From Panorpa germanica (Eukaryota; Arthropoda; Insecta; Mecoptera; Panorpidae), in contig OY783223.1 in the NCBI GenBank assembly GCA_963678705.1, positions 9,580,721-9,644,720 of the forward strand: DNA of 64,000 nucleotides, in the 5' to 3' direction. The first letter of the stretch is position 1; each line of letters starts with the position of its first letter. The position numbers and the translations under genes were made by a program. Shown piece by piece: positions 6,997-21,971 of this stretch. The notes under the pieces are model-generated. The model saw nothing but the letters and a program-made list of their open reading frames with translations, had not been told where the DNA came from and ran no database searches.

Positions 6997-7317
6997 AGTA
7001 GTATATAAAAGAGGGGACCTAACCCAAACTCAGATTTGATTGATTTGACACCTAAAATTTACCAAATTGTTATATATAACCAAATATTTTGAAAATATTA
7101 AATATTTATAAAAAATTGCAAAAATTGTTATATATAACCAAATATTTTAAAAATATTAAATATTTTTTAAAAATTACAATAATTAATAATATTTATCAAA
7201 ATATTGACATATATTTAGACTTCTAGAGAGTCTGCATTATAGTGCTCCAAAAGTGATAATATATCATGTTTTACCATATTCACAAAATACTGAATAATTT
7301 TTTTTCTATTAAATGGA
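6997..7317 (+). repeat. Left terminal inverted repeat, with promoter of the DNA polymerase gene
   Basis: Matches the reverse complement of 21648-21968 base for base as far as I can read, with no indel (position 7313 pairs with 21652). It should hold the protein-primed replication origin and, since it ends five bases inside the first gene (ATGGA), that gene's whole promoter and leader. It contains two 58-bp tandem copies (7064-7121, 7122-7179) built round TTATATATAACCAAATATTT. Near its inner end lies a degenerate hairpin-type stretch (7220-7252). Confidence 0.95.
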
Positions 7318-10300
7318 TTATATAAGAAACCAATTTCAAACTCAAACTATGATCCAATTAAAACAATATTGTAGAGATAATAAAATTCGAGGAGTATCTC
7401 AGTTAAGAAAAGCACAATTAATTAATACAATAATGAGATATATTAATAATACTAGAACAGAAGAGTATATACCACCATTCCAAAATGTTGATATCCCATT
7501 TACAATAGAAAAACCATATTTACCCCCATTTCGAAGTATCAAAGAGGATGATGAAGATATATTTCCCAAACCAACAGATTTTGAAAAGAATTTAGAAAGG
7601 AAGAGATTGATTAAAGAATTAGAATTAAAACCAAATAGAGCGTTTAATGGAATAATAAGTGATAAATATTTTATTTCAAAAAATAATGAAGATATTAATA
7701 TACATTTTGAAGAAATTAGAAAACCATTAACGAATTATATAAAATTTCAAATTGAAAAATATAAATATTTAAAGTTTAAACTTTCTACTTTTATTGAGTA
7801 TGTAGAATTAAATCAAGATGGAGAAGAAGTAAATACACATACAAATAAATTTAGTACTGACATTATAGAAATTTCAAGTTATGTAAAAGATATTCATAAA
7901 TTAATTAAAGTTATTGAAGATATAATTGACAATAAATTTGATCAATGGACTGAAAAGAACTCTAAATATAGATTTAAACAAGTAAAATATTCTGTTTTAT
8001 ATAGAGATAAATTTCAACCAATAAAAGGTGGATCATATATTGATTTACCACAATATATTAAAAATAAAAAATGTTGTATAAATGTAAAAAATATTAGAAC
8101 TAGACAATTTAAGTGCAAGGAAATGGAAGATAATAGATGTTTTGAGTATGCTTTAGAAAGTATACTAAATCCAGTAGATAGACATAATGATAGACCATCA
8201 AAATATAATATAACAAGATATGAGGAATTAGAAATGGAATATCCCCTTGCTTTATCTCAAGACATTATTGAAAAATATGAACAATTTTTAAATATTTCAA
8301 TTAATTTATATGAATTAATAAAAATGGGAATAGAAAAAGAAGAACAAATAATATTAGGCTATAGAAGTAAGAATATTTCTAATGATAAAACACATGTTAA
8401 TTTATTAGTCCTTAGTGAATTGATTAATGATGATGGTGATTTAACTTATCATTTTGTTGGTATAAAAAATTTAAGTAGTTTAATAAAAGGTAAAATTCAT
8501 CATTGTAATATTCGTTTTTATATTTGTAATAAATGTAGTAAGAGATTTAAAACTGTTATACAATATAATACTCATACAAAAATTTGTGGAATCTCAACTA
8601 GCAATATAATTATGCCAGCTGAAAAAACCTACAAATTATTTTATAAATCTAATGGAGCAGAAATATATCACCCTTATTTTACAACATTAGATTTTGAATG
8701 TACATTATCTAAAGATTTTCCCTCAGATAAAATAAATAATAAAAAAATTATTTCTAAACACATTCCAAATAGTTATTGTTTTACTACAAATGAAAAAACT
8801 ATTTTGAGAAGAGAAAAAGACTCTAATATATTAATGAAAACATTTAATAACGATTTAACAGATTTGGCAAAAAATTATTACAAAATAAAGAAAATAAATG
8901 AACCTATGAAATGGAATGAAGAAGATATAAAATTATTTGAATCACAAACAAATTGTCATATTTGTGGTAAAGATTTTGAAGGTCTTCCTTCTAATAAAGT
9001 TTGGGATCATGATCACATAACTGGTAAATTTAGAGGTGCCGCACATAAATCTTGTAATTTAAATTTAAAATTACCCAATTTTGTACCCATTGGAATACAT
9101 AATATAAAATATGATTCAAAAATATTTATTGAATGGATTTTAAAATTGAGCAAAGAAGCTGAAAATATTAAAATACTTGCTGATACAACTGAAAATTATA
9201 AATATTTATCAAAACGAGTTTTGGTAAATGAATATGAAACAAAACAAGATTCAATATATTGCTCAAATTGTAAAATATCAAGAAAAGGTGAAAACCTATT
9301 TGAAAAATGTACTAAATGTGAAGGTATAACAAAACTTGAAGTGTGTGGAGAAAATAAAATAAAATGTTTAAAATGTCTAAATATCTATAAAACTGCTAAG
9401 CAACTCTGCGAATCAGAAACAGAATCTCTTATAGATCTCTCCGAAGGAGAATCTCTTATAAAACTCTTTGAAGGAAAATCTCTTACAGAGCTCTTTGAAG
9501 AAGAATCTCCTATAGAATGTAAAAATGATAGTTGCACATATAAATGGGAAAAACTTAGAATAACACCAAAAGGAACAATAATACAAAGTTTTATGGAAAT
9601 AAGATTTATTGATACATTAGCATTTATGGGTGTTTCATTAGATAAAGCAATTAAAAATTTATTAAATATTAACTCTGGATATTGTTATAAATGTAAGAAA
9701 CAACGAGAATTAAAAAATCCTATACTGCTTTGCAAGACTCCAGAGGCTCCAGAGACTCCAGAGACCCCAAATGCTTCAAAAAGCAATATAATAGCATATG
9801 ATGATTGTGAATATTGTAATACTAAAATTGAAAAAATATGTGATTATAGTTCTTTTAAATATTTTAATGAAAGATATAAAAATTATTCATTAGAAGGAAA
9901 AGCTTTCTTATTACAAAAAGGAGTTTATCCATATGAATGGGTTGATGATTATAAAAAGTTCGATGCATTAAATTTACCAGATATTAAAGAATTTTATTCC
10001 AATTTAAATTGTAAAACAATAACTGATAAACAATATAAATTTGCCAAAGACTTTTGGAAACATTTTAATATTGATACTTTTGGTGAATATCATGATAGAT
10101 ATTTAAGATTAGATAGTATATTATTATATGATGTATTTAATAATTTTAGAGATATGTGTTATAAGGAATATCAATTAGATCCAGTTTATTTTATGAGTGC
10201 TCCACATTTAGCTAACTCAGCTTCATTAAAATATACCAAACAAACATTAGAATTATATCAAGATCAAGAAATGTATGAATTTACTGAAAAAGGTATTCGC

Positions 10301-11773
10301 GGTGGAATTAGTATGATATCAAATAATTATGCTTTATCAAATAATTGTTATTTCTATGATGAAAAGTATGAGAAAGTTATCAAATTATCAAAAGAAAAAG
10401 CTGAAGAAAAGGGTATATATAATTCAAAAAAAAATTTAAGTTATATAATGTATTTAGATGCTAATAATTTATATGGTTGGGCAATGTCTCAAAAACTACC
10501 AGTATCTAATCATGAATGGCTGTCAAACGAAGAAATTCAAGATTTAAAAAAAAATAAAAATATAATGAGTATCTCCTTCGGAGCGTTGCAAAGCAACATC
10601 AATGATGAGGGGGACATAGGATATATATTAGATGTTAATTTAGGAATTCCAAAAGAATTACATGATAAATTTGATGATTATGCATTAGCTCCAGAACACT
10701 ATTCTCCAAAATATGATGAATTATCAGAATATCAAAAACAAATGATTGATATTGGATTAGGATCAAAACCATCAAAAGAGAATAAAAAATTAATGTGCAC
10801 ATTATACAATAAAAAAAATTATATTATAGATTATAGAATATTAAAAGAATATATAAGACAAGGTGCTAAATTATTTAATATTAATAAAGGTATTAAATAT
10901 ATACAAAAAGCTTGGTTAAAACCATATATTGATAAAAATACTAAATTACGACAAAATGCTAAAAATGATTTTGAAAAAGATTTCTTTAAATTAATGAATA
11001 ATAGTGTATATGGAAAACAAATGGAAAACGTTAGAAATAGATTAAATGTAAAATTAATTAAATCTGAAGAAGCTATGCAAAAAATGATAAATTCAAATCA
11101 TTATCAAGATAGAAGTATATTAAATGAAGATACTGTCCTCATGTATGGAAAAAAAGTTTATGTTAAATTAAATAAACCTATATTTGGTGGATTTACTATA
11201 CTTGAACTATCAAAATTATTAATGTATAAATTTTATTATAACTATTTAAAACCTAAATATGGTGATAAAGTTAAACTATTAAGCACTGACACAGATTCCT
11301 TTATCATACATGTAGAAACAGACGATTTTTATGAAGATATAAAAAATAATATTGAATATTTTGATACAAGTGATTATCCAGATGAACATCCTAATAATAT
11401 ACCTCAAAAAAATAAAAAAATTCCAGGATTATTTAAAGATGAATATAATGGTATTCCAATTAGAGAATATTGTGGATTACGATCAAAAATGTATGCGTTT
11501 AGAACTGATAATCATGAGAAGAAAATATGTAAAGGAATTAAAAAAGTTAATATTATGAAAATGACATTTGATAAATATAAAGATTGTCTATTTGAACAAA
11601 AAAGGACAATTGAATCTAGTTATAGTATAAGATCATTTAAGCTACAATTATATACTATTCAAGAAGAAAAAATTGGATTAAGTCCTTATGATGATAAAAA
11701 ATATTTAATTGATAAATTTAATAGACTATCATATGGTCATAAAAATATTGATGAATTTTTCTATAATAAATGA
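7313..11773 (+). CDS. polB: Protein-primed family B DNA polymerase (Polinton PolB)
   Basis: Replicates the element from its termini. 1486 residues. In order: SAP-like DNA-binding stretch (about 14-45, LRKAQLI core); N-terminal extension; C2H2-like zinc finger (about 402-423); exonuclease motif I LDFEC (about 459); an endonuclease VII/HNH-like module (CHICG, about 545, then WDHDHITG near 562 and a final CN); ExoII-region HNIKYDSK and RFIDTLAF...SLD; ExoIII YLRLD (about 932); palm motif A YLDANNLYGWAMSQ (about 1046), motif B NNSVYG (about 1228), motif C DTDS (about 1325). All catalytic motifs are present. A cysteine-rich insert with three tandem 10-residue repeats (9422-9512) and a hairpin unit at 10571-10600 are unusual additions. 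The start is the ATG in TTCTATTAAATGG at the inner edge of the terminal repeat. The stop overlaps the next ATG (ATGA). Confidence 0.96.
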   Translation: MDYIRNQFQTQTMIQLKQYCRDNKIRGVSQLRKAQLINTIMRYINNTRTEEYIPPFQNVDIPFTIEKPYLPPFRSIKEDDEDIFPKPTDFEKNLERKRLIKELELKPNRAFNGIISDKYFISKNNEDINIHFEEIRKPLTNYIKFQIEKYKYLKFKLSTFIEYVELNQDGEEVNTHTNKFSTDIIEISSYVKDIHKLIKVIEDIIDNKFDQWTEKNSKYRFKQVKYSVLYRDKFQPIKGGSYIDLPQYIKNKKCCINVKNIRTRQFKCKEMEDNRCFEYALESILNPVDRHNDRPSKYNITRYEELEMEYPLALSQDIIEKYEQFLNISINLYELIKMGIEKEEQIILGYRSKNISNDKTHVNLLVLSELINDDGDLTYHFVGIKNLSSLIKGKIHHCNIRFYICNKCSKRFKTVIQYNTHTKICGISTSNIIMPAEKTYKLFYKSNGAEIYHPYFTTLDFECTLSKDFPSDKINNKKIISKHIPNSYCFTTNEKTILRREKDSNILMKTFNNDLTDLAKNYYKIKKINEPMKWNEEDIKLFESQTNCHICGKDFEGLPSNKVWDHDHITGKFRGAAHKSCNLNLKLPNFVPIGIHNIKYDSKIFIEWILKLSKEAENIKILADTTENYKYLSKRVLVNEYETKQDSIYCSNCKISRKGENLFEKCTKCEGITKLEVCGENKIKCLKCLNIYKTAKQLCESETESLIDLSEGESLIKLFEGKSLTELFEEESPIECKNDSCTYKWEKLRITPKGTIIQSFMEIRFIDTLAFMGVSLDKAIKNLLNINSGYCYKCKKQRELKNPILLCKTPEAPETPETPNASKSNIIAYDDCEYCNTKIEKICDYSSFKYFNERYKNYSLEGKAFLLQKGVYPYEWVDDYKKFDALNLPDIKEFYSNLNCKTITDKQYKFAKDFWKHFNIDTFGEYHDRYLRLDSILLYDVFNNFRDMCYKEYQLDPVYFMSAPHLANSASLKYTKQTLELYQDQEMYEFTEKGIRGGISMISNNYALSNNCYFYDEKYEKVIKLSKEKAEEKGIYNSKKNLSYIMYLDANNLYGWAMSQKLPVSNHEWLSNEEIQDLKKNKNIMSISFGALQSNINDEGDIGYILDVNLGIPKELHDKFDDYALAPEHYSPKYDELSEYQKQMIDIGLGSKPSKENKKLMCTLYNKKNYIIDYRILKEYIRQGAKLFNINKGIKYIQKAWLKPYIDKNTKLRQNAKNDFEKDFFKLMNNSVYGKQMENVRNRLNVKLIKSEEAMQKMINSNHYQDRSILNEDTVLMYGKKVYVKLNKPIFGGFTILELSKLLMYKFYYNYLKPKYGDKVKLLSTDTDSFIIHVETDDFYEDIKNNIEYFDTSDYPDEHPNNIPQKNKKIPGLFKDEYNGIPIREYCGLRSKMYAFRTDNHEKKICKGIKKVNIMKMTFDKYKDCLFEQKRTIESSYSIRSFKLQLYTIQEEKIGLSPYDDKKYLIDKFNRLSYGHKNIDEFFYNK
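9422..9512 (+). repeat. Three tandem ~30-bp hairpin-family units inside polB
   Basis: GAATCTCTTAYAGA..CTC-type units repeat three times in frame, giving the decapeptide pattern ESLIDLSEGE / SLIKLFEGK / SLTELFEEE. The first contains CTCCGAAGGAG (9439-9449), a 4-bp stem with a GAA loop. They lie in a linker between zinc-ribbon-like cysteine pairs of the polymerase. Confidence 0.85.
10571..10600 (+). repeat. Hairpin unit inside polB palm region
   Basis: CTCCTTCGGAG (10573-10583) followed at once by GTTGCAAAGCAAC (10585-10597), two perfect small hairpins in a row, coding FGALQSN just after polymerase motif A. It is in frame. Confidence 0.8.
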
Positions 11774-12249
11774 ACGTCTCTCTTTCAAAGCTCTCCAAAA
11801 TAGATACATATTCGTCCGAAGGAGATACTCTTTTAGAGCGCTGCAATGCAGATATTGTTTCACAACGCTCCGAAGGAGATATTTTTTCAGAGCTTTGTAA
11901 AACAGAATCCCTTTTAAAGCTCTCCAAAATAGAATCTCTTTCAAAGCTCTCCAGAGAAGAATTAATAAACAAATTGAATAACATTAATAATCTTTATAAT
12001 AATTTCATAAATTTGTTAGAGTTAGAATTAAATATACCATATCTCATTATGAATGCAAAAATGATAACATCAAAATATGGAGATAGAATAATTTTAACTC
12101 TTGAAAATAAGAAGAAATTAAGTTTACCAGAAAAATATAATAAAATAATTGATAATCCAGATGATTTAAAATTATTGAAAATAATATACAAAGGTAAAAC
12201 TACTATGAATGATAAATACGAAAAACATAACATTACTTTTAGTCAATAA
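11770..12249 (+). CDS. Small conserved Polinton-type protein with repeat-built N-terminus
   Basis: 159 residues; function unknown. The start ATG sits in TATAATAAATGA and overlaps the polB stop by four bases. The first ~63 residues come almost wholly from hairpin-family repeats (peptides SEGDTLLERC, SQRSEGDIFSEL, LLKLSKIESLSKLS). The natural protein is therefore probably only the C-terminal ~95 residues: a coiled segment, then a beta-rich stretch with YGDRIILTLENKKKLSLP and a final LLKIIYKGK. That pattern reminds me of a small OB-fold-like protein common beside Polinton polymerases, so a single-stranded DNA-binding role is possible, but this is inference from memory of the pattern only. Confidence 0.75.
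   Translation: MNVSLSKLSKIDTYSSEGDTLLERCNADIVSQRSEGDIFSELCKTESLLKLSKIESLSKLSREELINKLNNINNLYNNFINLLELELNIPYLIMNAKMITSKYGDRIILTLENKKKLSLPEKYNKIIDNPDDLKLLKIIYKGKTTMNDKYEKHNITFSQ
11774..11958 (+). repeat. Cluster of hairpin-family repeats at the start of the 159-residue gene
   Basis: About 185 bp of linked units, including CTGCAATGCAG (11841-11851) and CTCCGAAGGAG (11868-11878) plus decayed forms. It follows the start codon immediately and keeps the frame open, also giving long open shadows on the other strand because the repeats are near-palindromic. Confidence 0.88.
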
Positions 12250-12258
12250 AAAAAAATA

Positions 12259-12274
12259 TTTTTTATAATAAATG
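12259..12274 (+). promoter_or_regulatory. T-rich TAATAAATG start motif (type example)
   Basis: TTTTTTATAATAAATG overlaps the start codon. The same arrangement precedes genes starting at 7313 and 21652 (TATTAAATG), 11770, 12805, 14799, 15497, 17047 and 17923 (AATAAATG), 19160 (TATAAATG), and in altered form 13838 (ATAAATAAATAATG). It could be a late-type promoter of TAAATG kind or an AATAAA polyadenylation signal for the preceding gene. Confidence 0.7.
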
Positions 12275-12724
12275 AATCTCTTTCAGATCTCTCCAAAGGA
12301 GATTATCTCCTCCAAAACATATATTGAAAAACGAATGTATGTATATAGAAAAAGTTATAATTATTATCAAAAAATTGATATTGGTTTAACAATTAGTAAA
12401 GTATTATTTAGTGCATCTGGATTCTCCTTCGGAGCACTACCAAGTGGATTACCAGATTTAATTTTAATACCATTAGCAGCATTAGGTTTAGGTGGAGTAA
12501 TAATTGAAATTTTAGATAAAAAAATTCAAATTAAGGAAAAAATGTCTGAGTATAAAGTGGCCTATAAATTTTATAATCAAATGTTAACACAAATAAAAGC
12601 AAATATAATAAATGAAAATGATGTTTATATTAAAGAAGCAGAATTTATTGAAAATCTTAAATTTTTTCCATTGGATAAATATTTAAAGAAAGCAAATATA
12701 AATGGAATACCATCTTCAAAATAG
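12272..12724 (+). CDS. Small hydrophobic (membrane) protein, Polinton-associated
   Basis: 150 residues, function unknown. Basic, tyrosine-rich N-terminal helix (17-35), then a Gly/Leu/Ile-rich hydrophobic region (about 37-80, with PLAALGLGGVIIEI) able to form one or two membrane helices, then a charged helical tail with KEKMSEYKVAYKFYNQ. This layout of short helix, hydrophobic hairpin and long helix recalls a family often found in Polintons and SLATT-like membrane proteins; I cannot confirm which. The start ATG is in TATAATAAATGA, 22 bases after the preceding stop. Two hairpin units interrupt it: at the N-terminus (12274-12312) and within the hydrophobic segment (12424-12434, coding SFGAL). 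Confidence 0.78.
   Translation: MNLFQISPKEIISSKTYIEKRMYVYRKSYNYYQKIDIGLTISKVLFSASGFSFGALPSGLPDLILIPLAALGLGGVIIEILDKKIQIKEKMSEYKVAYKFYNQMLTQIKANIINENDVYIKEAEFIENLKFFPLDKYLKKANINGIPSSK
12274..12312 (+). repeat. Hairpin-family unit at start of hydrophobic-protein gene
   Basis: AATCTCTTTCAGATCT followed by CTCCAAAGGAG (12291-12301), in frame directly after the ATG. Confidence 0.78.
12424..12434 (+). repeat. Mini-hairpin CTCCTTCGGAG inside the hydrophobic-protein gene
   Basis: Perfect 4-bp stem with TTC loop, in frame, coding part of SFGAL within the hydrophobic region. Confidence 0.75.
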
Positions 12725-12786
12725 AATCTCTTTCAGAGAGAATCTGCTTCGCAGCGCTTTTTCAGAAAGAATCTCCTTCGGAGAGC
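12724..12786 (+). repeat. Intergenic triple hairpin array
   Basis: Three consecutive 11-nt hairpins with three different but self-complementary stems: CTCTTTCAGAG (12728-12738), CTGCTTCGCAG (12744-12754), CTCCTTCGGAG (12773-12783). It fills most of the gap before the zinc-ribbon gene. Confidence 0.88.
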
Positions 12787-12804
12787 ATTTATTTATTGTA
12801 ATAA

Positions 12805-12999
12805 ATGGATATCTCAGAACGAGTATATTGTGTAAAATGCAAAAAAAAAACAGATAATATTGATATTAAAACAATTAAAACAGAAAATAATAAATACAGA
12901 TTATCAGCAAAATGTAAAATTTGTAATAGTAATAAAAGTCAATTTATTAAGAATCTCCTTCAGAGCCCTACAAAAAAAAAAACTCTGAAGTTCTTTTAA
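12805..12999 (+). CDS. Zinc-ribbon protein, out of frame with the integrase
   Basis: 64 residues. YCVKC near residue 8 and KCKIC near residue 36 form a four-cysteine zinc ribbon, followed by NKSQFIKN, the pattern of a short zinc-ribbon family found as separate or fused proteins in Polintons and related viruses. Start ATG in TTGTAATAAATGG. The zinc ribbon is complete by about residue 50. The remaining residues read through a hairpin unit (12951-12970) and a run of eleven A (12972-12982), then stop in what appears to be the wrong frame. The integrase frame lies at -1 and has no ATG of its own before 13101, so this is likely the 5' part of the integrase gene. Alternatively it is an independent small protein. 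Confidence 0.8.
   Translation: MDISERVYCVKCKKKTDNIDIKTIKTENNKYRLSAKCKICNSNKSQFIKNLLQSPTKKKTLKFF
12951..12970 (+). repeat. Decayed hairpin unit next to the integrase frame break
   Basis: GAATCTCCTTCAGAGCCCTA, a damaged form of the CTCCTTCGGAG unit, directly before the A11 run where the reading frame changes. Confidence 0.7.
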
Positions 13000-13802
13000 A
13001 AGAAGCAATTGAATTACATAAACCAGTTATTAAAAAATTTAGACGAAGAAAAGTTATAACACTTGGAATAGATGATTTATGGGCTGCAGATTTAGTTATA
13101 ATGAGAAAATATGCTGATGATAATAATGGTTATAAATATATATTAAATGTTATTGATACTTTTTCAAAATTTGTTTGGTCTAAACCATTAAAATATAAAA
13201 CAGGAAAATCAGTTGCTAAAGCTTTTGAATCATTATTACATAATAGAAAACCAAAATTATTACATGTTGATAAAGGCTTAGAATTTGTTAATAAAGATTT
13301 TATAAAAATTTTGGATAAATATAATATAAAAATGTATCACACTGAAAATGAAGAAAAATCTACAATTATTGAAAGATTTAATGGTACTTTGAATCGTAAG
13401 ATGAAACCCTATTTTACAGCAAATAATAATTTTAAATGGATAAATATATTAGATACTTTAATAAAAGAGTATAATTATAAAGATTATCATCGAACTATCA
13501 AAATGAAACCCTTTGAAGTTAATAAAGATAATGAAAAATATATTTTGAATACTGTATACTCTCCCAATAGGGATAGATTTTATGAAAATATCTCAAAATT
13601 CAAAATTGGTGATAAAGTTAGAATAACAAAGTTCAAATCAACATTTTCAAATAAATATGAAACTAATTGGACAAATGAAATATTTAAAATTCATAAAATT
13701 TTATATACCAATCCAATAACATATAAAATAAAAGATTTAAATGGTGAAGAAGTCATTGGTGGATTTTATAATAAAGAACTTCAAAAATGTAAGATTTGCT
13801 AA
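12951..13802 (+). CDS. int: Retroviral-type (DDE) integrase, 5' frame break
   Basis: Joins element ends to host DNA. The recognisable protein starts near 13002 (KEAIELHKP, then a basic FRRRK stretch and GIDDLWAADL, which carries the first catalytic Asp). It continues through VIDTFSKF, the second Asp in HVDKGLEF and the Glu in IIERFNGT (33 residues between), and ends with an SH3/chromo-like DNA-binding region (IGDKVRI...GGFYNKELQ). The only ATG in this frame (13101) lies after the first catalytic Asp, so starting there would give a dead enzyme. The open frame begins after a stop at 12948-12950, without ATG. Expression needs a -1 shift from the zinc-ribbon frame, perhaps on the A11 run, or the copy is broken or misread at that homopolymer. 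The given start is the first codon of the open frame, not a proven start. Confidence 0.88.
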   Translation, partial: ESPSEPYKKKNSEVLLKEAIELHKPVIKKFRRRKVITLGIDDLWAADLVIMRKYADDNNGYKYILNVIDTFSKFVWSKPLKYKTGKSVAKAFESLLHNRKPKLLHVDKGLEFVNKDFIKILDKYNIKMYHTENEEKSTIIERFNGTLNRKMKPYFTANNNFKWINILDTLIKEYNYKDYHRTIKMKPFEVNKDNEKYILNTVYSPNRDRFYENISKFKIGDKVRITKFKSTFSNKYETNWTNEIFKIHKILYTNPITYKIKDLNGEEVIGGFYNKELQKCKIC

Positions 13803-13837
13803 AGACTGCGAAGGCTTTCTTTTTTTATAAATAAATA

Positions 13838-14806
13838 ATGGGGAAATTTATTAAAATTATTGGAAACAAATTGAGATTTGAAAATCCAATTAATCTTGAT
13901 CCACAGAAAAGATATAAAATTGGAGTATCTGGTTTTAAATATGATTTAATTGATATAAATAATTTTACAAAGTTCAAATTTCCAAAATTTAGTATAGATA
14001 TTATTTGGGAAACTACATATGGATATTATTCATTAACATGTAATATAAATGCAAATATATATTCTATTAATGATTTAGAAACAAAAATTATACAATATTT
14101 AACTCGTATGAGTTTTATAATAAAAACTAAAGAATTTAAAATTAAAAATAATCAACATGTATTTGATTTTTCTAATAAAAATGCTGATGATTTTTTAAAT
14201 TATATAACTTTTATACCAGAAGGAGAAATACCAAAAGAAAAAAGTTTTCATAGTACTCAAACATTTTTTGATCATGGTTCATTTGTAATGGATGTTATTA
14301 ATCAAAATAAAGTGAAAATTAATAGTCCAGTTAAATTAATATTTTCAAAGGAAATTAATAATATAATAGGATTTGGAAATAATAATATAATTGGAGTTGG
14401 AATTATTCCACAAAATAAAATTATAGAAGGTCCTCTTATATTACCTAAAGAAAAAAGAATTATTAATAATAAATTATATGAAATACATTGTAATATTGTA
14501 GAATCAAGTCATTCAAATCATGATAATCATCCACATTCACATAAAGATGATAATTTACTTTATGTATTTAAATTAGATACTCTTTTAGAGCGCACCAAGG
14601 GTGATACTACTAAAAGTAGCGCTCCGAATGGAGATACCCATTCAACATTTATAAATCCTAATGAAATTATTTATATTGATATATCAGATCGAATTGATAA
14701 ATTTCAAGAAATTATTTTAAACATTTATGACTTAGAAGGAAATGAGTGTCAAATATTTAGTAAAATTATAACATATTTACATTTTTGTTGTTTAATAAAT
14801 GACTAA
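13838..14806 (+). CDS. Penton-like minor capsid protein (single jelly-roll)
   Basis: 322 residues, placed directly before the packaging ATPase. The N-terminal FENPINLDPQKRYKIGVSGF, a midsection of short beta strands with INSPVKLIF and FGNNNIIGVG, and the C-terminal pattern IDKFQEIILNIYDLEGNE...ITYLH fit the vertex (penton) protein of Polintons as I know it. Assignment rests on pattern and position, not alignment. A His/Ser/Asn-rich stretch (about 224-243) precedes a repeat insertion coding LDTLLERTKGD and SSAPNGD (14576-14640); both probably sit in an exposed loop. The start has an altered motif (ATAAATAAATAATG). It overlaps the next gene by 8 bases. Confidence 0.72.
   Translation: MGKFIKIIGNKLRFENPINLDPQKRYKIGVSGFKYDLIDINNFTKFKFPKFSIDIIWETTYGYYSLTCNINANIYSINDLETKIIQYLTRMSFIIKTKEFKIKNNQHVFDFSNKNADDFLNYITFIPEGEIPKEKSFHSTQTFFDHGSFVMDVINQNKVKINSPVKLIFSKEINNIIGFGNNNIIGVGIIPQNKIIEGPLILPKEKRIINNKLYEIHCNIVESSHSNHDNHPHSHKDDNLLYVFKLDTLLERTKGDTTKSSAPNGDTHSTFINPNEIIYIDISDRIDKFQEIILNIYDLEGNECQIFSKIITYLHFCCLIND
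14576..14640 (+). repeat. Hairpin-family insertion in the minor capsid gene
   Basis: GATACTCTTTTAGAGCGC is identical to 11824-11841 in another gene. Later CTCCGAATGGAG is a 12-nt variant hairpin. In frame; codes a Ser/Thr/Gly-rich loop. Confidence 0.85.
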
Positions 14807-15467
14807 CGTATTCCAAATAAAAGATTATATATTTGAAGAACAGAAAAACACAAAAAGAATATTTCCAAAACCATTAAGATGTTTATTATGTGGTCCATCA
14901 AATTGTGGTAAAACATGGTTATTATTTAATTTTCTTACACAACCTTTTATAGAATTTAAAGGTCTATATATTTATACAACAACATTAAATCAAAAAATAT
15001 ATAAAGCATTAGAAAGAATTTTTAGTGAGATAGATACAGTGGATTCGCATTTTAATAATTGTGAAAATATTATTCCTGTTGAAGATTGTATAACTGATAG
15101 TGTTGTTGTGTTTGATGATTGTTTAGTAGAAGATCAAGATATGTTTAAAAAATATTTTTATAGTGGAAGACATAAAAAATTATCTTGTTTTTATCTTAGT
15201 CAAAGTTTTCTTGAAACAAATAAGAATTTGATTAGAAATAATTGTAATTTACTTATATTGTTTAAACAGGATTTATATAGTATTCAAGAGATTCATAAAA
15301 CAATTGTCGGTGCTGATATGGATTTAAATAAATTTAAAGAGTTATGTAATAAATGTTGGAAAATAAAATATGGTTTCTTATGTATCAATCGTGAAAAAGA
15401 TAATATTAATGAACGTTATATGTTTAAAGACGTTGATGGATATATTAAGAGTGTCGATGCTCTTTGA
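14799..15467 (+). CDS. Genome-packaging ATPase (A32/FtsK-HerA type)
   Basis: 222 residues. Drives DNA into the capsid. Walker A is GPSNCGKTWLL (about 31-41), Walker B is SVVVFDDC (about 101-108), followed by the FtsK/HerA-type sensor region with LSCFYLSQSF and RNNCNLLILF. Length matches Polinton ATPases. Start ATG in TTTAATAAATGA, overlapping the minor capsid stop by 8 bases. No hairpin repeat is visible in this gene, one of the few without one. Confidence 0.93.
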   Translation: MTNVFQIKDYIFEEQKNTKRIFPKPLRCLLCGPSNCGKTWLLFNFLTQPFIEFKGLYIYTTTLNQKIYKALERIFSEIDTVDSHFNNCENIIPVEDCITDSVVVFDDCLVEDQDMFKKYFYSGRHKKLSCFYLSQSFLETNKNLIRNNCNLLILFKQDLYSIQEIHKTIVGADMDLNKFKELCNKCWKIKYGFLCINREKDNINERYMFKDVDGYIKSVDAL

Positions 15468-15496
15468 AAAGGAACGATGCATTATTTTATTAATAA

Positions 15497-17017
15497 ATGG
15501 AAGGAGACATCTTAACCGTTTCCGAAGCTAAAAAAATAGATAAAATGCGAGATAAATTAATTAAAACATATAAAAAAGGATCTATACAAATCTCTGAGGA
15601 AAAAAAGAAAACGCTGTCACGATCGAAATCACCTTCAGTGCGCTGTAAAACAGAATCAGATAAATTATTAGAAGCAGAAAAAGCAGATGAGATTAGAAAT
15701 AAATTATATGAGAAATATAAAAAAATTGAATTACAAAATTTAAAATATAAGACCACTAAAGAAAAAGAATATGCTCCATTATTATCAGCGCTTGGAAAAA
15801 TAGATGAAGATATTATTAAAAGATCTGAAGGAGAAACTAAACAATTACAACCATATTTTACTATATCAGAACCTGTTACACCAAGTAAAAAAGAATTAAC
15901 AGAACCTGTTACTCCAAGAAAGTTTGATTTTTCAAAAATAAAAATATATGGAACAAACGCATCAACATATTTGCAACTTAGTATGGATAAAGATTACAAG
16001 TTTGATAAAATATTTGGACCAAAATCTGTTAATAACGAATTAAAAATAGGTAGTAGTAAAATGGAACTTGATAAAGATGATGGAATTACTATTGATGGTA
16101 AAAAAACCTATAATGGAACTGTTGGATTATGGTATTTACTAACTTATGGTGGTAAACCTGATCCACAATTTTTTACAAAAGATGACTATATAGCTTATAG
16201 AGATATTATAATAAATTCTAATGCTTTAAAAAACAAAATTAATAAACCTCTTTCATCACCAACAATTAAATGGACTACAATGATAAAATATATACATGAT
16301 TATATTAAAACAGGTATGAAACAAGATTTATATTATGATACTCTTTCAGAGCGCTCCGAAGGAGATAGTAATTTTAAAGAAGAGAAAGAAGGTTCTGGTG
16401 TCTCTCAATGGAAAGAATCTCCTTCGGAGCCTTCAGAGCGCTTTCAATGGAGAGAATACAATGATAATAAAATAGAAGTTCAATATATTTCAAATTTGAA
16501 TCAATTAATAAATCGTTTACAATTTATTAATGCACAAGAAAATGCAGGTAATAATAATTTTCATAATGAAAAATTAGGAGTGTTAAAATTTTTTAATAAT
16601 GAAATTGAAAAAATATTAGATACTCCAAAAGGGTGTGAATATTTAATAAAAATTGCAACATCATTACCAAAGAAAATTATAAGAGGATCAGGTATACTAA
16701 ATACAATTATAAATACACTCCCATTTGAAATGCATCTTCCTGGATATAATTATTGTGGTCCCGGTACTAAATTACATGATAGATTAGCAAGAGGTGATAA
16801 AGGAATTAATGGTTTAGACGAAGCTTGTAAAGAACATGATATTGCTTATAGTGAAAATAAAGACTTGGAAAAGAGACATGAAGCTGATAAAGTTTTAGAA
16901 CAGAAAGCTTGGAATAGAGTTAAGAGTTCTGATAGTGGTATTGGTGAAAAAACAAATGCATGGCTTGTTACAACAGGAATGAAATTAAAACATAAAATTG
17001 GTTTTGGATTAGCATAA
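15497..17017 (+). CDS. DUF8207-like plus phospholipase A2-like minor virion protein
   Basis: 506 residues. N-terminal ~110 residues are charged and helical. About 150-280 holds a globular region (YGTNASTYLQLS...NGTVGLWYLLTYGG...YRDIIINSNAL) matching the DUF8207 pattern of arthropod Polintons. The C-terminal ~412-475 is a parvovirus-type phospholipase A2 domain: calcium loop YCGPGT and catalytic helix CKEHDIAY with the His-Asp pair. In parvoviruses this domain breaches endosomal membranes during entry; a similar role here is inferred. Repeat-derived insertions code DTLSERSEGD (about 281-290) and SPSEPSERF (about 309-317), plus a decayed one at 15628-15657. Start ATG in ATTAATAAATGG, 29 bases after the ATPase stop. 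Confidence 0.88.
   Translation: MEGDILTVSEAKKIDKMRDKLIKTYKKGSIQISEEKKKTLSRSKSPSVRCKTESDKLLEAEKADEIRNKLYEKYKKIELQNLKYKTTKEKEYAPLLSALGKIDEDIIKRSEGETKQLQPYFTISEPVTPSKKELTEPVTPRKFDFSKIKIYGTNASTYLQLSMDKDYKFDKIFGPKSVNNELKIGSSKMELDKDDGITIDGKKTYNGTVGLWYLLTYGGKPDPQFFTKDDYIAYRDIIINSNALKNKINKPLSSPTIKWTTMIKYIHDYIKTGMKQDLYYDTLSERSEGDSNFKEEKEGSGVSQWKESPSEPSERFQWREYNDNKIEVQYISNLNQLINRLQFINAQENAGNNNFHNEKLGVLKFFNNEIEKILDTPKGCEYLIKIATSLPKKIIRGSGILNTIINTLPFEMHLPGYNYCGPGTKLHDRLARGDKGINGLDEACKEHDIAYSENKDLEKRHEADKVLEQKAWNRVKSSDSGIGEKTNAWLVTTGMKLKHKIGFGLA
15628..15657 (+). repeat. Decayed hairpin-family unit in the phospholipase-protein gene
   Basis: ATCACCTTCAGTGCGCTG followed by TAAAACAGAATC, a damaged reverse-orientation unit; the tail TGTAAAACAGAATC also occurs at 11896-11909. 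Confidence 0.65.
16337..16366 (+). repeat. 30-bp double hairpin unit (copy shared with the metalloproteinase gene)
   Basis: CTCTTTCAGAG (16341-16351) and CTCCGAAGGAG (16354-16364), joined by CG. The 29 bases from 16337 are identical to 19745-19773 and in the same reading frame. Confidence 0.92.
16402..16455 (+). repeat. Reverse-orientation hairpin units in the phospholipase-protein gene
   Basis: GAATCTCCTTCGGAGCCTTC with CTCCTTCGGAG at 16419-16429, followed by CAGAGCGCTTTCAATGGAGA-like remnants. In frame. Confidence 0.8.
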
Positions 17018-17046
17018 AAAGGAGAGATACTTTATTTTAGTAATAA

Positions 17047-17460
17047 ATGGAAACATTCCAAACAAATTTAACAAAACATCAAACTAGTAATATTAATAAA
17101 GCCTATAAGGATAAAAAAGATATTTTAATTCACTTAAAATATGATCAATTAATTAGTGGTGGTGAAAATAAAATATTATTAACAAAAAGATTATCAAATA
17201 GAATTAAGAAGGCAATAAAAGAGAAAACAGGTTGTAGAATAAAAATCTCCTTCGAGGCTCTGAAAAAAAATCATGAGGGTGGATTTCTTCCATTAGTATT
17301 TGCTGGATTAGCAGCTTTAGGATCATTAATTGGTGGAGCATCTGCAATTACTAATTCAGTTATAAATAAATCAGCTAAAGATAAAGAACTAGAAGAACAA
17401 AAAAGACATGATTTAGCAATGGAGAAAAAAGGAAGTGGTTTAAAAAAAAAAAAGATTTAG
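17047..17460 (+). CDS. pX/pVI-like membrane-active minor capsid or core protein
   Basis: 137 residues. A polar N-terminal half (with RLSNRIKKAIKEKTG), then the signature GGFLPLVFAGLAALGSLIGG (78-97), an amphipathic helix (KELEEQKRHDLAMEKKG) and a final run of lysines. Small proteins with a GGFLPLL-type hydrophobic stretch before the protease/capsid genes are usual in Polintons and adintoviruses and are compared with adenovirus pX/pVI. A role in capsid interior or membrane disruption is inferred. A hairpin unit (17244-17262) codes KISFEAL just before the hydrophobic stretch. Start ATG in TTAGTAATAAATGG. Confidence 0.78.
   Translation: METFQTNLTKHQTSNINKAYKDKKDILIHLKYDQLISGGENKILLTKRLSNRIKKAIKEKTGCRIKISFEALKKNHEGGFLPLVFAGLAALGSLIGGASAITNSVINKSAKDKELEEQKRHDLAMEKKGSGLKKKKI
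17244..17262 (+). repeat. Decayed hairpin unit in the pX-like gene
   Basis: AATCTCCTTCGAGGCTCTG, close to the CTCCTTCGGAGCGCTCTG form with one base lost. Confidence 0.65.
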
Positions 17461-17475
17461 CGCTCCAAAGGAGTT
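17459..17475 (+). repeat. Hairpin unit between the pX-like and protease genes
   Basis: AGCGCTCCAAAGGAGTT with hairpin CTCCAAAGGAG (17463-17473). It overlaps the stop codon of the gene before and lies where the start motif of the protease would be expected. Confidence 0.82.
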
Positions 17476-17482
17476 ACAGCCA

Positions 17483-17959
17483 TTGTCGAACATAGATATT
17501 GAAAATTTAGTTGAAAAATTAAAAATTAAAAATTTTAGAGGTGTGTTTATGAAAGATGAATTGCCTGATAAACCAAATAATATTGAATGTGGAATTATAA
17601 ATTTACAAAATTCATATCAGATTGGAAGTCATTGGACTGCTTATTATAAAAAGAATAATAAAATATATTATTTTGATTCTTATGGTAACGCTAAACCACC
17701 TAAAGAATTAGTAAAGTATTTCTCACAACCTTCGGAGATATTTTATAATGATACACGAATTCAACAATATAATGATCCACCAATTTGTGGACATCTCTGT
17801 TTATTTTACTTAAAGAACTTTCGGAGCCTTCAGAGCTCTCCAAAGCATAATCTCTTTCAGAGCTCTCCGATGGAGAATCTCCTTCGGAGCGATGCAAAGC
17901 ATAATCTTTTTTATTCTAATAAATGGTCGAAGTTTTTGATAAATATAACAAATATTTAA
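17483..17959 (+). CDS. pro: Adenovirus-type cysteine protease (maturation protease), no ATG, repeat-built tail
   Basis: Cleaves capsid precursors during maturation. Family pattern is clear: FRGVFMKDELP (18-28), ECGIINL, catalytic His50 in SHWTAYY, Asp65 in YYFDSYGN, IQQ at 93-95, Cys102 in PPICGHLC. The first ~20 conserved residues read from a TTG (17483); the first in-frame ATG (17549) falls after FRGVF and would truncate the enzyme. No TAATAAATG motif is present; a hairpin unit (17459-17475) occupies its place. After YLKNF (about residue 113) the C-terminal tail is entirely repeat-derived (17818-17905), and the frame then runs 37 bases into the capsid gene. Either start and tail were damaged by repeat insertion or a non-ATG start is used. 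Residue numbers count from 17483. Confidence 0.85.
   Translation: MSNIDIENLVEKLKIKNFRGVFMKDELPDKPNNIECGIINLQNSYQIGSHWTAYYKKNNKIYYFDSYGNAKPPKELVKYFSQPSEIFYNDTRIQQYNDPPICGHLCLFYLKNFRSLQSSPKHNLFQSSPMENLLRSDAKHNLFYSNKWSKFLINITNI
17818..17905 (+). repeat. Hairpin array in the protease C-terminus, before the major capsid gene
   Basis: Three intact units: CTCTTTCAGAG (17852-17862), CTCCGATGGAG (17865-17875), CTCCTTCGGAG (17879-17889), flanked by repeated GCAAAGCATAATCT-type pieces. It ends just before the TTCTAATAAATGG start of the capsid gene. Confidence 0.9.
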
Positions 17960-19134
17960 TTCGTAATGAATACAAGAAATTTTATCCAAAATTTGATAGA
18001 CGAGATATAAATAAAGAAAATGCAGCAATATCTTTTAAACTTGATTATAATAATAACTGCTTTCTAAATTTAAAAAATATTCATATTTATATTGAGGGAG
18101 AATATAAACAAACAGATGAAAAAAATTATGGTAATGAAACTGTAGTTAAATTAATAAATAATTTTGTAGCACATAAATTTAAAACCATTGAATATAAAAA
18201 ACATAATTACAAAATTGATCTAATTGAAAATGTTGGAGTTGCAAGTACAATGAAGGGAGTAATTACAAAAACAAAAACTGATACAAATAATTTAAATACT
18301 GGATTTATTTCAAATTTTGAACATGGTGGTATTTTTACAGCATTAGTACCTTTATCTGATTTAGGATTAGGAATATGTGATACTGATAATATAATTTGGG
18401 GTAGTGCTGATGAATTTATATTTACAATGAATCATGATAATGATGCAATTTATAGAGCGAATGATGTTGCTGAGGGTAAAATTATAATTACTGATATTTA
18501 TTTATATACTCCATTGCTTGAATATGATACTATTGGTTGTACAATGTTACTTGATGAATTAAAAACTCTAAGTGAAGAAGGAAATTATATTTTGAATTAT
18601 TATAGATGGCAATGTATTAAAATATTGAATGAGAGTATGTCTGGAAAATCATTGAAACTTGATATTACTACAGATTACAGAAGCCACAAACAACCGTTAT
18701 TTGGAATATTCGCTTTCCAAGTAAATAAATCTAATAATCAATTGAAAGATATGAGTGAGTTTAATCATAAATATGTTAAAAATTATTATTTCACTATTAA
18801 TGGAAATAGATATCCAGAAGAAAGTCAAAATTTAGATTTTGATAAAGATAAATATAATATTGCATATATGACATATCAGTCTTATAAAAAAATATTTTCT
18901 ATAACAGATAAAAATATGTTCTATGATATAAAAAGTTATAAAGAACTTGGACCTGTTTATTTAGTTGATTTAACTTGTCAACCAACAGATACAGAAATTT
19001 CAAATAAAACAATATTTTTACATGTTGATCTTGATAAGAAAGTTGAAAATGATACTTGTTGTTATATTATGTTGTTATCTCATATTAAAAATAAATTTGA
19101 TATGGTTTTAAATAAATTTGAGGAGACTATTTAA
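17923..19134 (+). CDS. mcp: Major capsid protein (double jelly-roll)
   Basis: 403 residues. Forms the icosahedral shell. Matches the Polinton capsid pattern: an early beta region (NIHIYIEGEY), VGVASTMKGVI (about 105-115), FTALVPLSDLGLG (mid-protein), a LFGIFAFQV strand (about 260), then NYYFTINGNRYPEE...LDF and YLVDLTCQPTD before a beta-rich end. The order of these conserved strands, the length and the place after the protease support the call; the fold itself is inferred. No hairpin unit interrupts it, which suggests selection against insertions here. Start ATG in ATTCTAATAAATGG, overlapping the protease frame by 37 bases. Confidence 0.85.
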   Translation: MVEVFDKYNKYLIRNEYKKFYPKFDRRDINKENAAISFKLDYNNNCFLNLKNIHIYIEGEYKQTDEKNYGNETVVKLINNFVAHKFKTIEYKKHNYKIDLIENVGVASTMKGVITKTKTDTNNLNTGFISNFEHGGIFTALVPLSDLGLGICDTDNIIWGSADEFIFTMNHDNDAIYRANDVAEGKIIITDIYLYTPLLEYDTIGCTMLLDELKTLSEEGNYILNYYRWQCIKILNESMSGKSLKLDITTDYRSHKQPLFGIFAFQVNKSNNQLKDMSEFNHKYVKNYYFTINGNRYPEESQNLDFDKDKYNIAYMTYQSYKKIFSITDKNMFYDIKSYKELGPVYLVDLTCQPTDTEISNKTIFLHVDLDKKVENDTCCYIMLLSHIKNKFDMVLNKFEETI

Positions 19135-19159
19135 CAATAGAAAATAATATTATATATAA

Positions 19160-20680
19160 ATGAAATATATTTTTTACTTTTTATTTCTTTTACCAATATT
19201 TTCAACAAACGAAGACTCCGATAAAAACATTGAAAAATATTTAAATCATTTTGGTTTCTCAACTTCTAATAGTAGCGCTCCGGAGAGTACTAAAGACTCT
19301 GAAGGCTCTTTAATACTTTTTCAAGAATATTATAATTTACCTATTGATAAAGCATTAAAGTTAATTAAAACACCAAGATGTGGAAATGAAGATAATCCTT
19401 TACAATATAGAATTCATACAACGAAATGGGATAGAAAAACATTGTATTGGCATTTTGCTTTAGCTCAATCAATACACAAAGAAATTACTCAAAAAGCTTT
19501 TAATGTTTGGTCGATAGTAAGTGGTCTTACTTTTTATAATAATATTTATAAGCCTGATATATTAATTTCGTTTGCAAGCGATATACATAAACATAAAAAT
19601 AATGCTCGATGTACAAAAGGTTTTTGTAATTGGGATTTTGATGGCGAAGGAACAGTATTAGCACATGCAACGTATCCTAATACAAATAATAGTTGTTTAG
19701 AAATTCATTTAGATAGGTCTGAAGATTGGGATTTGTATGATAATGATACTCTTTCAGAGCGCTCCGAAGGAGACACTGAGAAAACTAGTTTGTATTCTGT
19801 ATTAATACATGAAATTGGACATACGTTAGGTATTGAACATTCTGCACATAAAGAAGCAATAATGTTTCCTTATTATAGAAGAAAGAATAATCTCAGTCAA
19901 GATGATATTTATGCAGTTCAGAGGTTATATGGTCCTCCAATAACTCCAATAATTCCAACTACTATTCCAACTAGTATTCCAACAACTATTTCAAACGCTC
20001 CAACCAATAAACCTATTCTTTGTAATGTATATAAAAATATAGATACGTTTTTAATTGTGAATCATAATCTCTATATTTTCTATAACAAGTATGTGTGGAG
20101 AATAAAAATTGGTGATAAGATATATCAGGAACCGGAACTGATAACAGATTATTTAAAATTTTTACCTAAAGATATAGAAAAAATATCTCATATATATCAA
20201 AGACCTTCAGGTGAAATATTAATAATTGTTGATGAGTTATTTTACATAATGAGTTATCCTAGTTTTGAAGTAAATAATAATTACAATGGAGTTCCTTTAC
20301 AAAGATTAGGCATTCCGCAAAATAAAATGATTACAAGTATTTTTAACTCATATACTGGTCAAACATATGTTTTTTATGATAACCTTTATATAGAACTAAA
20401 TGAGTGTTCGTTATCTCCAAAACGTCATGGTCTCTTATCAGACTTATTTCCGGGGATACCATTGAACGTTTCTAATGTATTTAGATATATAAATGGACTA
20501 TTATATTTTTTTCATAATAATAATTTTTATGAGTATAGTGAGTTTTCAAATTCATTAATTAGATCAGGTAAAAAAGACTTATCAATGTTTGATATACCCT
20601 GTCCAAATATGACAATTTTAGAACAGCTAAAAATTTTATTAAAGAAACTCGTACTACAAAATAGTTTTGAACTTAATTAA
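19160..20680 (+). CDS. Secreted matrix metalloproteinase with prodomain and hemopexin domain
   Basis: 506 residues. Signal peptide (about 1-17), prodomain ending in cysteine switch TPRCGNED (71-78, Cys74 normally blocks the zinc), catalytic domain with zinc site HEIGHTLGIEH (217-227) and Met-turn AIMFPY (Met235), Pro/Thr-rich hinge (259-285), hemopexin domain (Cys288 to the Cys near 487, for the closing disulfide). The complete architecture is that of animal MMPs (matrixins), which cut extracellular-matrix proteins; it is not part of the Polinton core set. Probably captured from a host and used for tissue or basement-membrane passage (inference). Hairpin insertions code SSAPESTKDSEGS in the prodomain (38-50) and DTLSERSEGD (196-205) in a loop before the zinc helix; neither disrupts a motif. 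Start ATG in ATTATATATAAATGA, 25 bases after the capsid gene. No introns. Confidence 0.93.
   Translation: MKYIFYFLFLLPIFSTNEDSDKNIEKYLNHFGFSTSNSSAPESTKDSEGSLILFQEYYNLPIDKALKLIKTPRCGNEDNPLQYRIHTTKWDRKTLYWHFALAQSIHKEITQKAFNVWSIVSGLTFYNNIYKPDILISFASDIHKHKNNARCTKGFCNWDFDGEGTVLAHATYPNTNNSCLEIHLDRSEDWDLYDNDTLSERSEGDTEKTSLYSVLIHEIGHTLGIEHSAHKEAIMFPYYRRKNNLSQDDIYAVQRLYGPPITPIIPTTIPTSIPTTISNAPTNKPILCNVYKNIDTFLIVNHNLYIFYNKYVWRIKIGDKIYQEPELITDYLKFLPKDIEKISHIYQRPSGEILIIVDELFYIMSYPSFEVNNNYNGVPLQRLGIPQNKMITSIFNSYTGQTYVFYDNLYIELNECSLSPKRHGLLSDLFPGIPLNVSNVFRYINGLLYFFHNNNFYEYSEFSNSLIRSGKKDLSMFDIPCPNMTILEQLKILLKKLVLQNSFELN
19271..19310 (+). repeat. Hairpin-family insertion in the metalloproteinase prodomain
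   Basis: AGTAGCGCTCCGGAGAGTAC then GACTCTGAAGGCTC: a shortened CTCC/GGAG palindrome with no loop, related to AGTAGCGCTCCGAATGGAG at 14616-14634. Confidence 0.75.
19745..19773 (+). repeat. 29-bp double hairpin unit in the metalloproteinase catalytic domain
   Basis: CTCTTTCAGAG (19749-19759) and CTCCGAAGGAG (19762-19772). Identical to 16337-16365, coding the same peptide. Confidence 0.92.
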
Positions 20681-20685
20681 TATGT

Positions 20686-20728
20686 TGAGCATGCGTTCGA
20701 ATCCCACATGTGACAAATCTTTTTTTTT
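20686..20728 (+). pseudogene. tRNA 3'-half-like fragment followed by T9
   Basis: GCGTTCGAATCCCAC...TGACA resembles the T-arm and acceptor end of a eukaryotic tRNA-Leu, with a B-box core GTTCGAATC, and is followed by nine T (20720-20728), a possible RNA polymerase III stop. No A-box or matching 5' acceptor strand is visible upstream, where the metalloproteinase gene ends, and the T-stem pairs poorly. Hence a remnant, or a chance match. Confidence 0.4.
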
Positions 20729-21058
20729 ATTTCTCTTTCAGAGTTTTGCATATAATAATTAATAATAGATGGTGACACTAATTAACGAAATCTCATTTGT
20801 ATGGAATGATTCACGTCTTAGCTCTCAGTAGTATTGTACACTGTAATTGTGGACTATATATACAAGTTTTAATTTTTCATATGTTGGGATAACTATGATA
20901 TTATGGTTTTGAGCATGCGTTTTATAAGAGGTGCACATCTTATATTAGTGCAGATCAAAGTCAGTATCATTGGTAGACTGGTCGTATTAAATCTCAAAAG
21001 TATCTTATGATATTGATTTCTTCTCTTATTATTTATATGTAAAAATCTGATTTGTTGT

Positions 21059-21120
21059 GTTCTGAAGGAGATGATTCATTGTATCTGCTTAGCAGTGCTC
21101 CAAAGGAGTATTACAAAGCC
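21059..21120 (+). repeat. Hairpin-family cluster in the convergent intergenic region
   Basis: CTGCTTAGCAG (21085-21095) and CTCCAAAGGAG (21098-21108), preceded by GTTCTGAAGGAGATG. Same paired-stem design as the genic units. Confidence 0.82.
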
Positions 21121-21325: not shown

Positions 21326-21652
21326 TTAATTTTTAACACATTCTTTACAAGTATAAGAATATCCTAATGCATCACTTTGATTTTTATTAAATTCTTCATA
21401 TGGTTTTTCAATTTGACAAGAAGAACATTTTCTAGCTTTATTAAGTCTTAATCGATGATAATTTGTCTTTAAATGTTTTTTATGAAAATATTTTGAAATT
21501 ATTTTACCACATTCACAAAAAATAGTTTGTTTTTTATAATTTAAATCACAATTTTTACATATATTACTTAAATTATCTTTTTTACTTTTATTTGAATAAA
21601 AATTATCCAAAGATAAGGTTTGTTTACATGTTGAGCATTTTCTATTTTCCAT
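21326..21652 (-). CDS. Small cysteine-rich (CxxC) zinc-binding protein, first gene from the right end
   Basis: 108 residues with repeated cysteine pairs: KCSTCKQ (about 5-11), ICKNCD, FCECGK, KCSSCQ and a final CKECVKN. The pattern KCSTCK...LDNFYSNKSKKDNLSNICKNC resembles short zinc-binding modules found near HNH nucleases and in viral regulators. The central HKKHLKTNYHRLRL could add a His-based finger. Function unknown; DNA or RNA binding is likely. Start ATG at 21652 lies inside the right terminal repeat, so it shares its promoter DNA with polB and is probably expressed at the same early time (inference). It is the only leftward gene. Confidence 0.8.
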   Translation of the reverse strand: MENRKCSTCKQTLSLDNFYSNKSKKDNLSNICKNCDLNYKKQTIFCECGKIISKYFHKKHLKTNYHRLRLNKARKCSSCQIEKPYEEFNKNQSDALGYSYTCKECVKN

Positions 21653-21968: not shown

Positions 21969-21971
21969 TAC

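Follow-up and report, generated by a model that had tools for sequence, protein, structure and literature searches.

Mobile double mini-hairpins of 27 or 30 nucleotides in one Polinton family of the insect Panorpa germanica

The DNA analysed here, a window of 64,000 nt from contig OY783223.1 of Panorpa germanica, contains a Polinton that carries a family of short double hairpins, the subject of this report. The Polinton occupies positions 6989–21976 of the 64-kb window and is flanked by terminal inverted repeats of 337 nt. Its gene set comprises polB, an integrase (rve), a packaging ATPase, a protein with a PLA2 domain, a protease, a double-jelly-roll (DJR) capsid protein and a metalloproteinase. 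All Polinton hallmarks tested (polB, rve integrase, DJR capsid, packaging ATPase, C5-type protease and terminal inverted repeats) are present, the ATPase on a weak match (Pox_A32, E 0.006, below the cut-off; PHROG terminase, E 4e-4), the protease on a weak C5 match slightly under the cut-off, and polB through its homologues, not through a Pfam polymerase match. The polB protein (window 7313–11773) includes an endonuclease VII domain (PF02945), which its homologues likewise carry. No homologue of the 159-aa protein was found at E 0.001.

Capsid matches in the host genome (464 Mb, 249 contigs) amount to 105 rows, fragments included; 89 belong to the family of this Polinton (family 1; 72–100% identity) and 16 to a second Polinton family (27–29% identity). 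Capsid genes of family 1 are in many cases open and 99–100% identical across contigs, which suggests that the family has probably been active recently.

A preliminary description of this DNA had proposed that 11-nt mini-hairpins with covarying stems colonise the Polinton, inside and between genes. All 20 positions that it gave are perfect hairpins (13 CTCC/GGAG, 4 CTCT/AGAG and 3 CTGC/GCAG). Further CTCT hairpins lie at 9480, 11828, 14580 and 20733, and additional stems are TTGC/GCAA (10586), ATGC/GCAT (17892), CTGT/ACAG (15643) and CACC/GGTG (14593). A census of perfect 4-nt arms around a 3-nt loop found 34 hairpins in the Polinton with at least two G/C per arm, compared to a mean of 7.4 (maximum 14) in 100 dinucleotide shuffles, and 18 with at least three G/C, compared to a mean of 0.48 (maximum 2); the hairpins are thus far more frequent than in shuffled sequence. 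Among arms with at least three G/C no other loop size is enriched (loops of 2, 4 and 5 nt were seen 0, 2 and 1 times); with at least two G/C, 5-nt loops are enriched as well (17 against a mean of 7.3, maximum 14), so the specificity for three-nucleotide loops is limited to GC-rich arms. The 49-kb flanks are mildly enriched, with 14 GC-rich hairpins against 7.6 (sd 2.3, 40 shuffles), none of the CTNN..NNAG type. As previously described, the ATPase and major capsid genes contain none of the hairpins; the same is true of the integrase gene.

The 11-mer is only part of the repeated entity. The real unit is a double hairpin of 27 or 30 nt, with borders that are usually GATA or AATC, and direct-repeat families in the Polinton advance in 27-nt steps. 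Copies in register show that a linker of 2 nt joins hairpin 1 to hairpin 2, and that an ATA or AAT spacer follows. To describe the units we used 132 distinct 24-mers, taken on the gene strand from family-1 sequence by a profile scan blind to pairing. The linker is CG in 54 and CT in 47. The loop of hairpin 1 is TTC or TTT in 111 (TTC alone in 91) and that of hairpin 2 is AAA, GAA or CAA in 97 (AAA or GAA in 83). These preferences bring the unit near to its own reverse complement, and the two orientations reported before prove to be mostly the TTC/GAA loop pair of one near-palindromic unit. Perfect stems are of ten types: CTCC (41), CTCT (26), CTGC (10) and, once or twice each, CACC, CTGT, ATGC, CTCG, TTGC, TTGT and TTGG. 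Certain units at 14580, 30 nt long, have a 5-bp stem, and alleles there contribute the further stems CTACT/AGTAG and TTGCT/AGCAA.

The arms of the mini-hairpins covary. They are paired in 67.8% of cells, compared to 55.5% after shuffling (sd 1.0, maximum 58.6, 1000 shuffles; z 12.6), a shuffle that keeps relatedness among units in place. Paired as one long palindrome, the same columns reach 52.9% against 55.6% (z -2.6); because of the relatedness, the contrast between the two pairings weighs more than the z-score. A long-palindrome fold of the whole 24-nt core is ruled out by its lack of covariation. Mismatches of the G-T kind (81 cells) are no commoner than C-A (107 cells), which gives no hint of RNA wobble; pairing at the RNA level is not favoured. 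All eight units that were folded adopt the double-hairpin shape.

Insertion is evident from comparisons of orthologous sites among fetched pieces of family-1 copies in the same genome. Six sites have both empty and filled alleles, the filled ones having 27 or 30 extra nt, or several extra units. The polB site at 10573 is empty in 13 of 18 copies, the hydrophobic-gene site at 12291 in one of 11 (L022), the PLA2-gene site at 16341 in two of 21 and the metalloproteinase site at 19749 in seven of 24, including L037, for the most part about 99% alike. At 14580, in the 322-aa gene, four of 14 places are empty and the others are longer by 30, 57–60 or 87 nt. At 15624, in the PLA2 gene, eight of 29 copies are empty, 10 have the window's allele and 11 have others; length alleles that exceed the empty one by 15, 24, 26 and 42 nt also occur.

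These comparisons, which the preliminary description had called for, define the insertion borders. At five of the six sites 4–6 nt are repeated at both ends of the unit: GATACT at 19749 (L057 and L060 compared to L025), GATA at 16341 and at 14580 (L021 compared to L025), TATC at 10573 (L051, L046) and AATCA at 15624. The repeated ends are GATA/AATC-like and match the ends of the near-palindromic unit itself. Each of the six target sites contains GATA or GATT on one of its strands; this motif covers 11% of the Polinton. The suggestion of a mobile palindromic family inside genes was therefore right; we read the units as mobile double-hairpin elements of one Polinton family.

Within genes the insertions largely respect the reading frame. 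Of the 34 distinct length alleles at nine gene sites, 30 are in frame (89 of the 94 copies that differ from the window), compared to two of eight alleles (two of 13 copies) at two length-variable sites outside genes, 12728 and 21060; an off-frame entry at 12291 (-25, truly 27) and 6-nt offsets at 10573 are effects of anchor extension. The commonest unit has no stop codon in its forward frames and a length that is a multiple of three, so that insertions into genes are probably tolerated at flexible places and frame-breaking ones probably weeded out. Units occupy all three reading frames and encode unrelated peptides (LSERSEGDT, SFGALQSNI, NLFQISPKE). A conserved peptide is ruled out by the three frames and by the aligned homologues, which lack it.

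Among the 12 of 120 listed polB homologues that were aligned (P0001–P0007, P0009, P0015, P0020–P0022), the unit at 10573 corresponds to a nine-column gap in 11 and a longer gap in P0022, and the array at 9430 is present in none. The PLA2-protein alignment covers 25 of 120 listed homologues, several too short for every site, and the unit peptides occur in none of these partly incomplete sequences. Ordinary conserved loops, with the same peptides at the same positions in homologues, were thus not seen in either protein. Of five copies chosen at 19749 for their low capsid identity (73–83%), four are empty. The empty diverged copies and the polB homologues without the nine residues indicate that insertion is the derived state.

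Among the genome matches listed, none to the unit was found outside family 1. A search of the host genome for the commonest unit, allowing up to three mismatches, gave 175 matches, and the reversed control none. Among the 100 matches listed, 95 have a family-1 capsid gene no more than 13 kb away, two are inside a Polinton piece (L022) and three lie 1.2 kb beyond L021, in a duplicate Polinton piece that continues past the end of L021. The 40 loci examined around matches (L001–L040) are all family-1 copies on many large contigs and are not mitochondrial. L057, a copy 80–86% identical to the window, has no GC-rich hairpins over 5.5 kb, a stretch with seven in the window. Of six pieces from other diverged copies, each 1.2 kb long, four have none, one has a CTGC hairpin (L061) and one a CTCC hairpin (L064), which suggests that a few units reached diverged copies too. 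A 7-kb piece of one second-family copy has no GC-rich hairpins. Neither an exact nor a slightly degenerate pattern of the unit was found in viral_contigs or genome_contigs, capsid and polB profiles retrieved no related Polintons from viral_contigs, and the stretch 12272–12860 has no match among phages.

How a unit reaches a new site we infer from its borders and structure. We consider it likely, with a probability of about 0.6, that the double mini-hairpins are inserted at GAT(A/T) sites by template switching during replication, through short matches of the target to the GATA/AATC ends of the unit itself. The polymerase of a Polinton is protein-primed and displaces a strand as it copies. The displaced single strand would fold, and its mini-hairpins would stall the polymerase; the growing 3' end would use a GATA match to jump into a GATA-flanked unit, copy one unit or several, and return at the next GATA. 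Copying within folded arms would renew the pairing, such that it is almost perfect in fresh units and decays in old ones. Template switching is suggested by the unit-length steps, the unit-like GATA ends, the presence of GATA-flanked donors in arrays and the better arms at sites with an empty allele. The preliminary description took the covariation to mean that pairing seems to be kept, or that units arise by a palindrome-preserving process; the cause that we prefer is spread at the DNA level with renewal of the palindrome, not a function kept at each site.

Several observations weigh against template switching. No jump was observed, and end repeats of 4–6 nt would also fit a transposase, or a target-specific single-strand transposase acting in trans. 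Single-stranded replication intermediates are known from protein-primed polymerases and are presumed for the Polinton. The window's own polB unit at 10573 repeats just 3 nt (ATC), and the site at 12291, with its single empty copy, just 2 nt. Filled alleles at 19749 have three different right flanks, mirrored in three empty alleles, which requires recombination or repeated insertion; exchange between copies thus also acts. L058 (capsid 82%, DNA 94%) is filled at this site. Only 17 of the 132 units have two perfect hairpins and 71 have at least one, counts that are lowered by units off register. Folding is clearly better than in shuffles for three of eight units (z -2.5 to -4.0; the rest -0.6 to -1.5), although units are so short that single-unit folding energy is a weak test. 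The comparison that shows better arms in the window at sites with an empty allele (12 of 14 perfect, compared to five of 16 at sites without) used hand-picked sites, excluded arrays and counted two identical terminal-repeat units twice. The covariation test has the limit of relatedness given above. Chimaeric mispaired hairpins also persist, and pairing is therefore not strictly renewed.

These chimaeras, in L028 at 14580 and L025 at 17820, have arms like those of two unit types, joined in the loop, and are a sign of exchange within loops.

A bolder and more tentative possibility is that the units are parasites of a virus-like transposon, multiplying in Polintons as folded single-stranded DNA, excised or primed by the endonuclease VII-like activity of the Polinton itself, and writing new in-frame peptides into viral genes. 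Enzymes of the endonuclease VII family are branched-DNA nucleases, and the domain in polB and the 108-aa frame next to the right repeat could cut extruded hairpins. The short frame, a possible cutter in its own right, matches Stc1 barely above the Pfam cut-off and a His-Me finger below it. Hairpin cutting is no more than a possibility, since homologues have the polB domain too and the aligned ones lack units at the polB sites. Were the parasite reading true, the units would be smaller than any mobile DNA element described so far and would have no precedent in virus-like elements of animals.

Single-strand movement of the units by a transposase in trans, with the hairpins as recognition ends and GATA as target tetranucleotide, is unlikely. 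The tetranucleotide-like target, hairpins near both ends, near-symmetric double hairpin and exact borders are what such an enzyme would leave, and REP/BIME and IS200/IS605 combine a tetranucleotide beside a hairpin with paired hairpins moved by a Y1 transposase. However, the 464-Mb host, unlike the hosts of those systems, has no match to the Pfam Y1 type, while five of 14 control genomes were positive, and the Pfam scan found no Y1 transposase among the Polinton genes that it covered.

We judge it improbable that selection maintains the hairpins site by site as functional signals (for packaging, replication or as mRNA elements). Signals would be expected to have arms that covary and loops that are conserved, as seen here (TTC in 91 of 132; AAA or GAA in 83); yet close copies differ in being filled or empty (L037 at 19749), GC-rich hairpins are absent from 7 kb of the second family and 5.5 kb of L057, the excess of G-T over C-A mismatches that mRNA pairing predicts is not seen, and units at sites without an empty allele are more decayed. 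We find it just as doubtful that old tandem arrays only slipped and underwent unequal exchange among Polinton copies, without reaching new sites: arrays do change in 27-nt steps, and copies have exchanged sequence at 19749, but lone units stand in genes at sites that are empty elsewhere (10573, 16341, 19749), and the polB unit, alone without an array, is missing from homologues. Selection for a Ser/Glu-rich linker of nine residues, with the palindrome as by-product, fits the 27-nt arrays that encode nine-residue repeats such as LSERSEGDT, but is already contradicted by units in three frames and between genes with unrelated peptides, and by aligned homologues without units, and is very improbable.

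How short palindromic DNA moves is a long-standing question (extracts of PMC2800124 and PMC4478555); our comparisons with known systems draw on extracts of the papers cited, and also of PMC7218506 and PMC5799277. Rickettsia palindromic elements, previously named as the closest analogue, are nearest in effect, being palindromic DNA in frame in unrelated protein genes (PMC10969869); they are bacterial, about 150 bp long and encode a conserved peptide, in contrast to the 27–30 nt and three frames of the Polinton units. Nearest in form are the double-hairpin elements of fungal mitochondrial DNA (Allomyces, Schizosaccharomyces), with two hairpins per element, presence or absence among relatives and spread over one genome (PMC10085805). 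Two adjacent hairpins likewise form in all eight folded Polinton units, yet both are perfect in just 17 of 132. The Schizosaccharomyces elements are intergenic or in rRNA genes (PMC10085805), and for Allomyces flanking duplications are reported absent (extract of PMC2800124), whereas the Polinton units are nuclear, inside the protein genes of a virus-like element, and have GATA-like end repeats of 4–6 nt at five of six sites. The units belong neither to the fungal nor to the Rickettsia elements. MITEs with a transposase are marked by terminal inverted repeats and by a target duplication unrelated to the element; the Polinton unit is near-palindromic, and the repeats at its ends resemble its own GATA/AATC borders.

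Palindromic GC clusters of yeast mitochondrial DNA, among which GC42 shows species differences in loops (PMC4478555), differ in being mitochondrial, mostly intergenic and, in the commonest type, about 42 nt long. The in-gene repeats of PMC2996958 share dyad symmetry of the DNA, but are 25-residue protein domains of microbes, compared to 9–10 residues, and positions outside genes too, for the units. Coding palindromes of Nematomorpha mitochondria are, as here, perfect inverted repeats in working protein genes; they have long arms that code conserved protein regions and are not an inserted repeated family (PMC6649704). Searches of an open-licence library, which leaves most subscription journals outside, turned up no description of such a hairpin family in Polintons.

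Prior cases of gene-invading short palindromic DNA come from Rickettsia and organelles; here the host is a nuclear virus-like element. The family has numerous copies and, with them, empty sites that are clean, borders that are defined and a target motif, which makes template switching, single-strand transposition and RNA routes testable by comparing copies. If template-switch copying holds, the units would rank with the smallest DNA segments known to spread. They also offer a simple route by which viral proteins can acquire new segments of nine residues.

Table 1. Hairpin units and related features of the Polinton, in window coordinates.
Feature	Position	Strand	Details
Left terminal inverted repeat	6989..7325	.	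337 nt, 99% complementary to 21640-21976
Array in polB	9426..9505	+	27-nt period, coding 9-residue repeats; direct-repeat families D2/D6
27-nt unit in polB	10574..10600	+	CTCC-TTC-GGAG (10573-10583), TTGC-AAA-GCAA (10586-10596)
Array of 27-nt units, 159-aa gene	11815..11960	+	hairpins 11828, 11841, 11868
27-nt unit, hydrophobic 150-aa gene	12275..12301	+	directly after start codon
Unit, hydrophobic gene	12424..12441	+	present in 10/10 copies compared
Intergenic cluster	12728..12783	+	CTCT 12728, CTGC 12744, CTCC 12773; length-variable (8 copies)
Two units, 322-aa gene (minor-capsid-like by the preliminary description's name)	14580..14633	+	CTCT, CACC, CTACT (5 bp), CTCC
27-nt unit, PLA2-domain gene	15632..15658	+	CACC-TTC-AGTG (one mismatch), CTGT-AAA-ACAG; AATCA both ends
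27-nt unit, PLA2-domain gene	16341..16367	+	CTCT + CTCC; GATA both ends
Hairpin, PLA2-domain gene	16419..16429	+	CTCC-TTC-GGAG, length-variable stretch
Unit after pX stop codon	17463..17473	+	extra units in certain copies
Array, 3' end of protease gene	17820..17905	+	hairpins 17852, 17865, 17879, 17892
27-nt unit, metalloproteinase gene	19749..19775	+
Lone CTCT hairpin	20733..20743	+	non-coding DNA
Non-coding unit	21085..21108	+	CTGC-TTA-GCAG TG CTCC-AAA-GGAG
108-aa frame, partly endonuclease VII-like	21326..21652	-	adjoins right repeat; PHROG endonuclease VII E 1.3e-14, short profile part
Right terminal inverted repeat	21640..21976	.

The array in the 159-aa gene differs in length from the window in six of eight copies, by -102 to +73. 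The left terminal repeat has a decayed double-hairpin unit near 7225–7256, in which no perfect hairpin remains. The metalloproteinase gene (19160–20680) is of the matrixin type with a hemopexin match, and looks like an animal-type gene captured by the Polinton.

The unit at 17463, assigned before to pX, directly follows the stop codon of that gene; a copy within pX (17244) is decayed. In the copy read as L019/L020/L040 (C5:7818001-7827900) the array after pX is 81 nt longer, with a CTCG/CGAG stem among its units, an extension missing from most of the close relatives compared. Another repeat, some 36 nt long (GAGAAGACAGG..CGAAGCC with CTCCTTTCTAAGGAG), differs among copies where pX ends (window 17425; L012, L014, L017, L028); it could also form hairpins and may be a second type of element.
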